Assembly (NCBI GenBank): GCA_002009975.1
Contig: MTLP01000036.1
Location: 1 to 64,000, forward strand
Length of the DNA: 64,000 nt
Source: Thermococcus sp. JdFR-02
GTDB taxonomy: Archaea; Methanobacteriota_B; Thermococci; Thermococcales; Thermococcaceae
Direction: 5' to 3'
In this document: positions 25,603 to 47,597 of the stretch, in pieces
Layout: each line of letters starts with the position of its first letter
How positions within the stretch are numbered: the stretch's first letter is position 1
Translations under genes and position numbers: made by a program
Notes under the pieces: generated by a model
What the model was told of the DNA's origin: nothing
Seen by the model: only the letters and a program-made list of their open reading frames with translations
The model's database searches: none

Positions 25603-26610
25603 ATGAGGAGAGGGAACTTTTTAGTTTGGGTAGTAGTTATTTTATTTATATTCTATTTAGCATGGAGAGTCATAGAACCGCTGATATCACCGATATTCTT
25701 TGCTGCCGTGCTTGTTTATGCTGTAAATCCAATACACAAGCGACTATCCTCGAAAATAGGAGAAGAGAAATCGTTTATACTATTGACAATACTGCTTGTT
25801 CTGATAGTTGTTATGATAACGGTTGAACTCATACTTCTCTTTAAAAAGGTCATGGAATCTGTTTATACCTACGTTGATCTGTTCCTAAAATGGTTTGAGA
25901 CTTTAACTTTGCCTTTTGGAATGGAAGAGGCAATACAAAAAGCCTATTCCCAGATAATGCCAAAGCTCTCAGAATACACGATAAATTACACCCTTTCAAT
26001 TCCAAAATACCTAATCCAAACGGTGATATTTTTAGCAGTCTTTTACTACTTCCTAACTCATGCAGAGAGTATAAAGATGGAGATATACAGCCTATTACCG
26101 AGAGATAATAGAGAGTTAGCCGAGAAGCTTTTAAGAAGAGCGGATCTAACTTTGCAAGCTTTGATTAGATCATGGCTGCTCTTAAACATCGCAAAAGGAA
26201 TAGTAATGACAGCAGGATTTCTAATTTTTGGCGTTACAGATTTAGCGGGTTCAATTGGTGCTGGACTGTTCACAATACTTTTCAGCTTTATTCCTCTATT
26301 TGAAGGTTGGATGGTGTGGCTTATCGGAGCAATATATCTTATAAAAAATGGTAATCCCACAACAGCGTTGCTATTGTCGATTTATGGATTTACTCTAGTC
26401 TCTCCCCTACCAGACTTTACAATAAGACCAAAAATCGTGGCTAAAGAAGCCAAATTAGATTCCATGATGGTTCTAATTGGAATGATTGGTGGAACAATGG
26501 CTTTTGGACTAAAAGGATTAATTGCTGGTCCTATAGTTCTAAATCTCGTCTCAGCTTTGATAAAGGAGTGGAAAAGACATGAAAGAGCTAAAGCAGTAAT
26601 CATAGAGTAG
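25603..26610 (+). CDS. AI-2E family (PerM-type) transporter
   Basis: A 335-residue membrane protein with about eight hydrophobic segments. The hallmark C-terminal region contains FGLKGLIAGPIVLNLVSALI, the G-L-x-G-x-(I/V)-x-G-P motif of AI-2E/PerM permeases, and SFIPLFEGWMVWLIGA before it. Bacterial members export AI-2 or exchange ions; the archaeal substrate is unknown. The ATG at 25603 follows GGAGATC. The 3' end overlaps the convergent nicotinamidase gene by 11 bases. Confidence 0.85.
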   Translation: MRRGNFLVWVVVILFIFYLAWRVIEPLISPIFFAAVLVYAVNPIHKRLSSKIGEEKSFILLTILLVLIVVMITVELILLFKKVMESVYTYVDLFLKWFETLTLPFGMEEAIQKAYSQIMPKLSEYTINYTLSIPKYLIQTVIFLAVFYYFLTHAESIKMEIYSLLPRDNRELAEKLLRRADLTLQALIRSWLLLNIAKGIVMTAGFLIFGVTDLAGSIGAGLFTILFSFIPLFEGWMVWLIGAIYLIKNGNPTTALLLSIYGFTLVSPLPDFTIRPKIVAKEAKLDSMMVLIGMIGGTMAFGLKGLIAGPIVLNLVSALIKEWKRHERAKAVIIE

Positions 26611-27136
26611 CTATCTCAGCACCTTTTTCTTCCAGTTCTTTTATGACCTTTTCTTCGTCTTCTGGCTTAATGCCTTTAATAGCATCTTTTAAAATAACAA
26701 CCTCAAATCCAAGCTTTAAAGCGTCTAAAGCCGTTGCCCTAACACAGTACTCCGTTGCAACCCCACAGATATAAACCTTCTTAACGCCTTTCTCTTTCAG
26801 TATTTGCTCCAAATTTGTGCCTTCAAAACCAGAATAAGCCTCCTTATCCGGTTTATCAGCTTTTGAGATTATTATTGCATCTTCCGGTAATTTAATGACG
26901 AATTCTGCACCTTCCGTATTCTGAACACAGTGCTTGGGCCAAATTCCCCCATATTCCTTAAAACTCATGTGATTTTCAGGGTGCCAGTCTCTTGTTGCAA
27001 CAATTAGGGCATTTCTTTTCTTAAAAAGCTCAATATATTTCTCTATTCTTGGAATTATCTTATCTCCATTTGGAACTGGCAACGCTCCACCAGGCATGAA
27101 ATCCTTCTGCATATCAACAATTATTAGGGCTTCCAT
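26600..27136 (-). CDS. pncA: Nicotinamidase
   Basis: A 178-residue isochorismatase-fold amidase. Catalytic triad: Asp8 in VDMQKDF, Lys92 in SKADKPD and Cys131 in CGVATEYCVRATA. Metal ligands are Asp50 and His52 (TRDWHPENH) and His69 (WPKHC). These match the P. horikoshii enzyme two residues offset. It hydrolyses nicotinamide to nicotinate for NAD salvage. The ATG at 27136 is chosen because GGTGG precedes it by 5 bases. Confidence 0.92.
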   Translation of the reverse strand: MEALIIVDMQKDFMPGGALPVPNGDKIIPRIEKYIELFKKRNALIVATRDWHPENHMSFKEYGGIWPKHCVQNTEGAEFVIKLPEDAIIISKADKPDKEAYSGFEGTNLEQILKEKGVKKVYICGVATEYCVRATALDALKLGFEVVILKDAIKGIKPEDEEKVIKELEEKGAEIATL

Positions 27137-27178
27137 CTTTTCCACCGAACATATGTTCGATAAGGAACTATTTATCGT

Positions 27179-27580
27179 TTATCCCAAATCCAGCTTATCC
27201 CTAAACTTAAACATGTTCAAACCTTTATCCAGCCCGTAGAGATAGAGAACAATCCTTTTATCCAAGTCACCGTAACGTTTTGAAAACTCCTTAAGCTCCT
27301 CTAAAATCTCAAACTCATTCCAACCAAGTTCTTTTGCAATGTAGGAGAGCATTTCATTAAAAACATCGATTTTTTCCTCCTCTTCTTCAAGTTTTTCAGT
27401 GTTAATTACAAATTTATCTTCGATTACCTCAATAACTCCTTTTTCAATGGCATCATCTATCAGCTTCTTTGCTTCTTTAACCCCCATAATCCTCAATTTA
27501 AAAACAAGTATGCCAATTAGTTCTTGCTTCATAAACTCATTTGAGCCTTTGAAAAGAACAGCATCTTTCAATGCTTGCAC
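27179..27580 (-). CDS. DUF2240-like archaeal protein
   Basis: About 133 residues. The N-terminal half is LKDAVLFKGSNEFMKQELIGILVFKL, then EAKKLIDDAIEKGVIEVIEDKFVI, a winged-helix-like layout. A Glu-rich linker leads to a C-terminal helical domain. This resembles archaeal DUF2240; function unknown, nucleic-acid binding possible. GTG at 27580 follows GGTGAG; a TTG at 27583 is also possible. Confidence 0.55.
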   Translation of the reverse strand: MQALKDAVLFKGSNEFMKQELIGILVFKLRIMGVKEAKKLIDDAIEKGVIEVIEDKFVINTEKLEEEEEKIDVFNEMLSYIAKELGWNEFEILEELKEFSKRYGDLDKRIVLYLYGLDKGLNMFKFRDKLDLG

Positions 27581-44771: not shown

Positions 44772-47564
44772 TCACCTCTTCGACTTAAACCAAGCATCCA
44801 ATCCCATTTGTTTTGTCTTTTGATACTCTAAATCCTTCTCCTTATATCCAAAAGCCTCTAAAATCCTAAGCACGGCTGGAAGAACTTGATTGTGGATGTA
44901 GTAGTCTGGATCGTATTTGTGCTTCTTTGGGTCATATTCATCTAAAAGAATTGCCCTATCGCTTATTTTTTTATCTCCCCTAAGAACCACATAATTTATA
45001 ATCATTCCAGGCTTAACTTTAACCCCTTTAGCTTTTAAACGCTTAGCTATGGCTATATGAGGACCCGTTGCCTTATATGCGCTCAGTTCTCTCGTTATTT
45101 GTTCATAAATTACAAGCTTTTCCACTGGAACTCTATAATTCGCTAAATCCTCAACAACTTGCTTAACAATCTTTACGGCCTTCTCAACACTACCATCCTT
45201 TAGAATTGCCTCCAGAACTTTAGCTTGTGTCTCTTTTGCTATTGCACTCCAATCTCTTCTCACAACTTCCAAGCCACGTGTGGTTATCCTCCCCTCTTCA
45301 TCAATAACAGCGTAGCGTTTCTTTGTAACAAAGAACCCTCTTGTGTAAAATCCTTCAAACTCGAGCTCAAGCATTCCTGGGAGTTTCGAGTTTATATACT
45401 TCAAAAACTCCTTAGCTTTTTGCTTAATGGCTTCGGGCTTTTCTCCTGGAAGTGTGGCATAGAATCCATCTGTATTGTGAACCAAAATTCCATTTGCAAA
45501 GAATCTATGCGTATCTTCGACTTCAATGTCATAAACATAATCTTTGTATTCGATCTCTATGACAGAAGTAACATCGCTAAATATGATCTCCCCATCATTA
45601 TACAATATTAACTTCATGTTGTCATTAAGATTAATCGGTTTTGCTTCAACAAATTTTCCATCTTTATAAACAATTATGCTATGATCTTCAGTAACATCAA
45701 CGTACTTTTCACCACTAAACACTCTATACATCTTTTTTCTGGCTAGATGTCTCATGACATATGGAACTTTCTTCCAAACCAGCTTACCATTATCATTTAG
45801 CGTTAGCGCTTCAACATCTTGTAGAGTACAATACTCTTTTTCCCCAAGCTTATACTCAACATTCTTAAACAAATCCTCGATTTTCACGAATTTTACTTCT
45901 CCTTTTTCCCTGATTATTACTTCTGTATCTCCAGAAACGCTGTCCGCATAAAGCACTTTAAAGCCCCAATTTTCAATCTCCTTGATCGTGGTTTCTATGT
46001 AGTATCTTCCCCAAGCCGTAACACTTTCTGCAGACTCTTTTGAATACCATCTTGCCTTAGGATAACCCATATAACCGTAGAAACTATTAGCTAGGATCTT
46101 TAGAGCTCTCTGCCTATAATCGAGCATTTTTTGTTCAACACCACTTGTCTCTTTCATCTTCTTCTTAACAGCTTGCCTTTCCTCTATCAAGCTCTTTAGA
46201 ATACTTGGTATAAATCCCGGAAAATCTTTGCAGAACCTATATCCAACTATTGGAGCTTTGTCATAATTTTTACAACCTTCTCTTTCTAAAGTATCGGGAG
46301 AAATGTTGTGTTCGACTATAATTGAGGGGTAAAGAGCTCTAAAGTCTAAATAAACTATGTTCCCCCACAATCCTCTCTCTGGCTCTTTAACGTATCCTCC
46401 AATATACGTTGTTCTTAATCTTCTTTGATATTCCTCATTGCTCGGTTTATTTGGTGCTAACTCATTCTTTTGATACGCGATTCTTAGTAGAAACCACTCA
46501 ACTAAATTACCTGTGCTTGATCTTGAAACGTCCCAAACGCTTTGGGCAATAAGCTTTGAAAGCTCAGCTTCCATTGGAAAGAACTCTTTGCCGAGTTCAT
46601 AAGTTGCTTTAGCATCTTCCATCGAGTATTGGGCTAAAGCTTTCATTCCTTCTCTGCTTTCCCAAATCATGCTTATCTCTTCAGCCTGGAGCTTTGTTTT
46701 CTTTTTTCCCAAAACAGCTTCATAAACAGCCTCAAGCGTATAATGTGGCAAATTTACCGTTCTTCTAACAACGGGGAACAGATCAAAGTGTATTCTCCCC
46801 TTAATCTCAACGGCAAATCTGTTGCCCATTCTTTCAATTTTTGGTTCGCTGTTCTCTTTATCCCTTCCAAGCATTAACTTAACACCAAGCTTTCTAGCCC
46901 TCTTAACAAGGTAAGGCACGTCAAAGTTGTCACCATTGTAGGTTATCAAAACATCTGGATCTTTTTCTCTCACTATTTGAACGAAACGCTTTATCATTTC
47001 CCTCTCGCTTGAAACGACCTCTACATATGGCAGATCAATCTTCTTCCAAGTGATAACTTTGGCTTCTTCTTCATCTGCATAGCTTATCATTATTATTTGC
47101 CCTTCCCCAAATTCCTGCCCCTCTGTGTAGAAGGTCTCGATATCAAAAGCCATTAGCTTAAGCTTTTCATCTCCTTCCATTGGTACTAAGTTTTTATCAA
47201 TCAAATAGCGCTTTGCAAAAGGAATATCATACTCAAATATGTCAATAACTGCTGGATGTTCCCTAATTTTGTTTCTAATAGCTGGAACGTCTTGAGGATG
47301 TTGAAAAATCAGCTTCCAGACTTCAATTGGCTTTCCCAAGAATTTCTTTTGAACCTTTTCTGCTTTTACAATCTTAACAACTTTTCCATGTCTCTCTCCA
47401 GTTATTTTCTTAACCTCTTCAATCGCACTATCGTCTTTTAGAAGGGCATAAATGTAAGGCTGAAAATCCCTATCGTACTCAATCTTAAATTCCCCATTTT
47501 CAATCTTAAAAATCCTAATCACAGGTTTTCCATTTTCAGTGACATAGTCAGTATCAATTATCAC
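44772..47564 (-). CDS. polB: Family B DNA polymerase, intein-containing precursor
   Basis: A 930-residue precursor. The exonuclease domain shows [20 protein letters not shown] and [12 protein letters not shown]. Polymerase motif A is [12 protein letters not shown], motif B region is [18 protein letters not shown], and motif C YAD/TDGFYA is split by the intein. Removing the 156-residue intein leaves 774 residues, the exact length of Vent- and KOD-type enzymes, which supports the GTG start at 47564 (after GGTGGG) instead of the ATG 12 bases upstream. Sequence closely resembles the T. litoralis enzyme. Replicative/repair polymerase with proofreading and template-uracil sensing. Confidence 0.97.
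45474..45941 (-). mobile_element. Mini-intein at the pol-c site of PolB
   Basis: 156 residues inserted in YAD/TDG of motif C. N-terminal splice block: Ser1 in [10 protein letters not shown]. Block B: VTEDHSII (T-x-x-H). C-terminal blocks: [20 protein letters not shown], ending His-Asn, with Thr as +1 extein residue. All splice residues are present. The homing endonuclease (LAGLIDADG) of the T. litoralis Pol-2 intein is missing; block B and the C-terminal part are joined by only about 45 residues. It should splice but not home. Confidence 0.95.
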
Positions 47565-47597
47565 AATTCCCACCATAAATAGCTATGATTTTTGTTA

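Follow-up and report, generated by a model that had tools for sequence, protein, structure and literature searches.

A pol-c mini-intein in the family B DNA polymerase of Thermococcus sp. JdFR-02 and its probable shared history with Methanocaldococcaceae inteins

Within the 64,000-nucleotide stretch of Thermococcus sp. JdFR-02 DNA that we analysed (the window), the polB gene has a reading frame uninterrupted over 934 codons, and its conserved motif YADTDG is split by an in-frame insertion (Table 1). We refer to this insertion, the pol-c mini-intein of the polymerase, as the window intein; it corresponds to precursor residues 546–701 (SVSGDTEV...GILVHN) and lies between VLYAD and TDGFYAT. The initial annotation had placed it at 45474–45941, and these coordinates are exact, translation of the minus strand giving 156 residues from SVSGDTEV to ILVHN. 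Also as annotated, the insertion occupies the pol-c site YAD/TDG with Ser1, T-x-x-H, the terminal His-Asn and Thr+1 all present, and the anticipated sizes of about 90 kDa for the enzyme and 18 kDa for the intein agree with the calculated masses of 90.5 kDa for the spliced 778-residue polymerase and 18.3 kDa for the intein, released from a precursor of 108.7 kDa. The solved structures closest to this polymerase are those of Thermococcus and Pyrococcus PolB (1tgo among others).

Table 1. Features of the polB gene and its pol-c intein in the window
Feature	Position	Strand	Description
polB ORF	44772..47576	-	934-aa family B DNA polymerase precursor: 778-aa mature enzyme plus 156-aa intein
pol-c mini-intein	45474..45941	-	156 aa (468 bp), Ser1 ... 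His155-Asn156 / Thr+1
Intein residues 1–74, N-terminal Hint half	45720..45941	-	88% identity to Methanocaldococcaceae full-length pol-c inteins
Block B motif T-E-D-H, residues 84–87	45681..45692	-	T84, H87
Divergent core, intein residues 75–133	45543..45719	-	Without endonuclease, 11–12 residue loop after TEDHSLIGY, or W-x-TNSW
C-terminal blocks including F	45474..45536	-	From pol-c intein alignment
N-side splice junction VLYAD/SV	45936..45956	-	Within polymerase motif YADTDG
C-side splice junction HN/TDG	45465..45479	-	Thr+1 nucleophile
pol-a site, empty	46320..46352	-	Uninterrupted here; filled in several relatives
pol-b site, empty	46071..46100	-	Uninterrupted here; filled in several relatives

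The class 1 residue set is complete in the window intein (Ser1, T84-x-x-H87, His155-Asn156 and Thr+1), and the alignment of 39 pol-c inteins shows no variation at Ser1, T84, H87, D138, H145, His155 or Asn156. Its single cysteine is Cys38, and the W-x-TNSW stretch present in nearly all relatives reads F-SGEKY here. Three intein profiles match well above their cut-offs: PF14890 Intein_splicing (52.8 bits vs 35.8), TIGR01445 intein_Nterm (42.4 bits vs 24.5) and TIGR01443 intein_Cterm (39.3 bits vs 15.6). An AlphaFold model, for which nine mini-inteins of the pol-c site served as input, is nearly all beta with a mean pLDDT of 95.6 and a pTM of 0.89, and its top Foldseek matches are inteins, including Aes123 PolB1 (E 2e-13, TM 0.88), PhoPol-II (7oec; TM 0.92, rmsd 1.7), the M. 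vulcanius TFIIB intein and the Pyrococcus RadA mini-intein; as modelled, the window intein has the Hint fold. The insertion splits a host motif that is conserved and that is uninterrupted at the same site in other genomes of the family, and by its YAD/TDG position and its clustering with the other inteins of this site it is assigned to the pol-c allele.

We are highly confident that this is a functional class 1 mini-intein that removes itself from PolB, that shares its history with Methanocaldococcaceae and from which the endonuclease is now absent; within this reading we infer selection on the window copy, the route of endonuclease loss and splicing itself, the last from the anatomy, the predicted fold and established knowledge of class 1 inteins. 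The intein would be translated as part of PolB and fold as a Hint domain, whereupon an acyl shift at Ser1, transfer to Thr+1 and cyclisation of Asn156 aided by His155 would be followed by a final acyl shift that rejoins the active-site motif YADTDG. As the intein splits this motif, the unspliced precursor should be inactive, and selection should therefore keep splicing intact. Loss of splicing, with the polymerase dead or replaced, seems to us extremely improbable. Such a loss would be tolerated if PolB is as dispensable here as in T. kodakarensis, where complete deletion of polB causes no growth defect and only raises DNA damage sensitivity (PMC6759347), but the catalytic residues and both junctions are intact, the frame is open over all 934 codons, the predicted model is well folded and the genome contains no second polB. 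The same deletion contradicts the description of the host as an essential polymerase in the initial annotation; Halobacterium differs from T. kodakarensis in its requirement for PolB (PMC6759347).

At 156 aa the window intein has, as judged from its sequence, no endonuclease domain or remnant. A tblastn search of the window with the endonuclease segments of full-length pol-c inteins gave nothing significant (best E 0.03), and a whole-genome search with a full-length pol-c intein matched only the window mini-intein and inteins in other ORFs. A frameshifted endonuclease, which the annotation had named as a possible objection, is excluded, as is a displaced one elsewhere in the window or genome, and the description as a natural mini-intein lacking the endonuclease stands. 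It is a natural mini-intein of known type and not exceptional. Several other ORFs of the same genome (1041–1699 aa; L006–L009, L041, L043–L047) give intein-like matches, and at least some of them contain endonuclease-like stretches; their coordinates are G000:C8:98352-101477, G000:C23:22201-23280 and G000:C2:7978-8151 and 26591-27274.

The intein and its host gene differ in their affinities. Over residues 1–74 the window intein shares 88% protein identity with full-length Methanocaldococcaceae inteins vs 58–73% with Thermococcaceae ones. The Tli-Pol-2-like intein L024, which we take to be T. litoralis Pol-2 from its sequence and its length of 390 aa, reaches 66% over the same residues, and the close relationship to T. 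litoralis Pol-2 that had been claimed gives way to a closer one with Methanocaldococcaceae. For the host C-extein the order is reversed, with 54% identity to Methanocaldococcaceae and up to 84% to Thermococcaceae. Correspondingly, the Hint-half tree groups the window intein with four full-length Methanocaldococcaceae inteins (support 100/98), whereas the C-extein tree places the window within Thermococcaceae (support 100/100), a disagreement that argues against vertical descent of the intein within Thermococcaceae. A constraint under which the Thermococcaceae inteins all form one clade was only marginally rejected (p-AU 0.046), and the case for transfer rests mainly on the supported Hint-half grouping together with the reversed identities. 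Because the N-terminal half of the intein is so much more similar to its Methanocaldococcaceae counterparts than is the host C-extein, the intein appears to have crossed lineages, sharing a horizontal history, in either direction, with Methanocaldococcaceae pol-c inteins. The Hint-half tree is compatible with either direction, as it has the window intein either nested within or sister to the four Methanocaldococcaceae inteins. Base composition is weak evidence on this point because, although the intein has 33.1% G+C against 38–39% in the exteins (p 0.03), the difference at third positions is not significant (p 0.23).

A virus or plasmid source was also considered and rejected: phage records yielded no polymerase inteins other than distant ones (at most 35%), plasmids one distant match, and viral contigs nothing close, at best 42–44% over the full length. 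Four viral contigs (L059, L061, L062 and L063) carry B-family polymerase inteins at the equivalent site YGD/TDS with 34–42% identity to the window's, and the DNA polymerase of Campylobacter phage CC_R7 (H1; PQ092953.1, 106601–107059) contains a full-length match at 35% identity.

The pol-c site is occupied in two archaeal classes and in two states. Counting sites recognised by the window intein, 28 of 94 Thermococcaceae genomes are filled, 18 with full-length forms (389–390 aa) and 10, the window included, with minis; a pattern search that demands YADTDG, and so leaves variant-motif and incomplete genomes uncounted, found the site uninterrupted in at least 49 of the 94. In Methanococci nine of 36 genomes are filled, five with full-length forms and four with minis (L052–L055, from G117, G149, G128 and G123, respectively). 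The genomes searched thus contain at least 14 pol-c minis of 156–162 aa, the window intein at 156 and 13 others (G074, G079, G084; G056, G059, G061, G068, G073; G017; G117, G123, G128, G149; 157–162 aa). The minis of G123 and G128 form a very divergent branch and, as in the window intein, lack W-x-TNSW. Related mini pairs have dN/dS of 0.08–0.18, strong purifying selection from which we conclude that minis are maintained, the figures being those of other pol-c minis rather than the window copy, with one genome in the window's genus.

Two segments are missing from all 14 minis: the endonuclease, and a loop of 11–12 residues that follows TEDHSLIGY in every full-length form. This shared pair of missing segments, with the narrow range of lengths, would be expected from descent of all the pol-c minis from a single ancestral mini without this endonuclease, the full-length forms having gained it later. 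The Hint halves, however, reject a single origin of the minis (p-AU 1.1e-5, with about nine label changes on the tree), and we consider such an ancient mini lineage unlikely; a version of it confined to the cores, which are short and divergent, may still hold, since recombination could give core and halves different histories.

Comparison of the cores bears on how the mini state arose. Against its Methanocaldococcaceae relatives the window intein is 90% identical outside residues 75–133 and 37% identical inside them, and the break at this core has a z of 6.9 vs a shuffled maximum of 5.0. None of the full-length inteins compared contains the window core as a sub-sequence; the earlier picture of a full-length intein simply minus its endonuclease does not hold, the core being divergent rather than a cut-down full-length one. 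The initial annotation had favoured the explanation that the homing cycle conventionally offers for mini-inteins (PMC1654191, PMC3229294), in which homing is lost after fixation: here a deletion in place would have removed the endonuclease from a T. litoralis Pol-2-type full-length intein of Thermococcales and left a fixed relic. Site and family are indeed those of Tli Pol-2, yet the Hint halves group with the four Methanocaldococcaceae inteins and not with Thermococcaceae, the single Thermococcaceae clade is rejected, if marginally, and the core is no remnant of a sampled full-length form; we regard deletion in place as very unlikely.

Two close mini/full pairs point instead to exchange of cores. 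Between the G079 mini (L014) and the G083 full-length intein (L030/L004), DNA identity is 99% in the first 240 nt and 98.7% in the last 75 nt, yet the cores are unrelated (44–48% identity). Similarly, the G017 mini (L019) and the G013 full-length intein (L034), both from single-contig genomes and with downstream extein DNA 94% identical, have an intein core at 41% vs 88% outside (z 10.6). A mini/mini control gave no significant break (z 4.4 vs a null of 4.8). Recombinational replacement fits both pairs, since after a recent deletion the mini core should still be found within the full-length form, and it is not; from their nearly identical halves and unrelated cores, the cores were apparently exchanged by recombination, the pairs being compatible with either gain or loss of the endonuclease. 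Assembly titles for L004 and for L001, a mini of the same clade, point to Guaymas samples. A recent import of the G083 endonuclease core from a sampled genome was considered and dropped, no close donor having been found.

For the window intein, the endonuclease could accordingly have been removed by deletion, with the core then rebuilt, or a mini core could have taken the place of its endonuclease-bearing core when the conserved Hint halves recombined. The reading to which we give most weight, at slightly less than an even chance, is that homologous recombination in the conserved Hint halves has swapped mini and endonuclease cores among pol-c inteins and that the window intein is one product, its comparison with L002 having the same pattern as the two close pairs. 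Against this, no donor core turned up for the window intein, the G083 genome is a draft bin in about 220 contigs, a full/full control also breaks weakly (z 5.5 vs 5.3), and the window pair is old enough for deletion followed by fast divergence. Indeed, synonymous sites between the window and Methanocaldococcaceae inteins are saturated (dS about 1.5), so that deletion with fast linker evolution looks the same as a recombinational swap in the window intein; an attempt to date endonuclease loss by synonymous change was defeated by this saturation. More tentatively, and with rather less confidence than in core exchange itself, minis may be one allelic state of a two-state element and not end-stage relics. 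Repeated recombination in near-identical Hint halves, both inside genera and between Thermococci and Methanococci, would exchange their cores for endonuclease cores and could let a mini regain its endonuclease.

With the window intein, the known set of natural inteins grows by one small, serine-type and probably thermostable member. The survey is more useful than the single intein, as it presents one polymerase site in two archaeal classes with full and mini states, an empty state in Thermococcaceae and minis in several lineages. Coexistence of mini and full forms is a known phenomenon, since both have already been catalogued within one intein allele in Halobacteria (PMC4071816); a literature search, covering sources other than subscription papers and InBase, found no paper dedicated to pol-c mini-inteins in Thermococcus. 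The part most worth following is the allelic mosaics around the window intein, as mini/full pairs with nearly identical splicing halves offer a testable case of endonuclease loss and perhaps regain.

Among known systems, the full-length pol-c inteins of Methanocaldococcaceae, methane-making vent archaea (L002, L003, L056 and L057; 377–391 aa), are closest in their splicing halves: L002 shares the YAD/TDG site and is 88% identical over residues 1–74 and 82% over residues 124–156. Unlike the window intein, they have an endonuclease core (LAGLIDADG type by inspection), the extra loop and W-x-TNSW, and their hosts are Methanocaldococcaceae PolB, at only 54% C-extein identity. The full-length Thermococcaceae inteins (389–390 aa) share site, catalytic residues and host gene with the window's but retain the endonuclease and are less similar over residues 1–74 (58–73%). 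The other pol-c minis resemble it in site, length class and the missing endonuclease and loop, whereas their Hint halves belong to other lineages and their core sequences differ; W-x-TNSW is absent from the window intein, as it is from those of G123 and G128. The Pyrococcus CDC21-1, RadA and Pol-II inteins (6rpp, 6rpq, 4e2u and 7oec) are likewise natural mini-inteins of hyperthermophiles with the same fold (TM 0.83–0.92), but they occupy other host proteins and sites and are 22–29% identical to the window's. Closest by sequence and fold among solved structures is Aes123 PolB1 of T4-like Aeromonas phages (9hth), which is also serine-initiated and hosted by a B-family polymerase; it is phage-borne and split, at 28% identity, whereas the window intein is contiguous.
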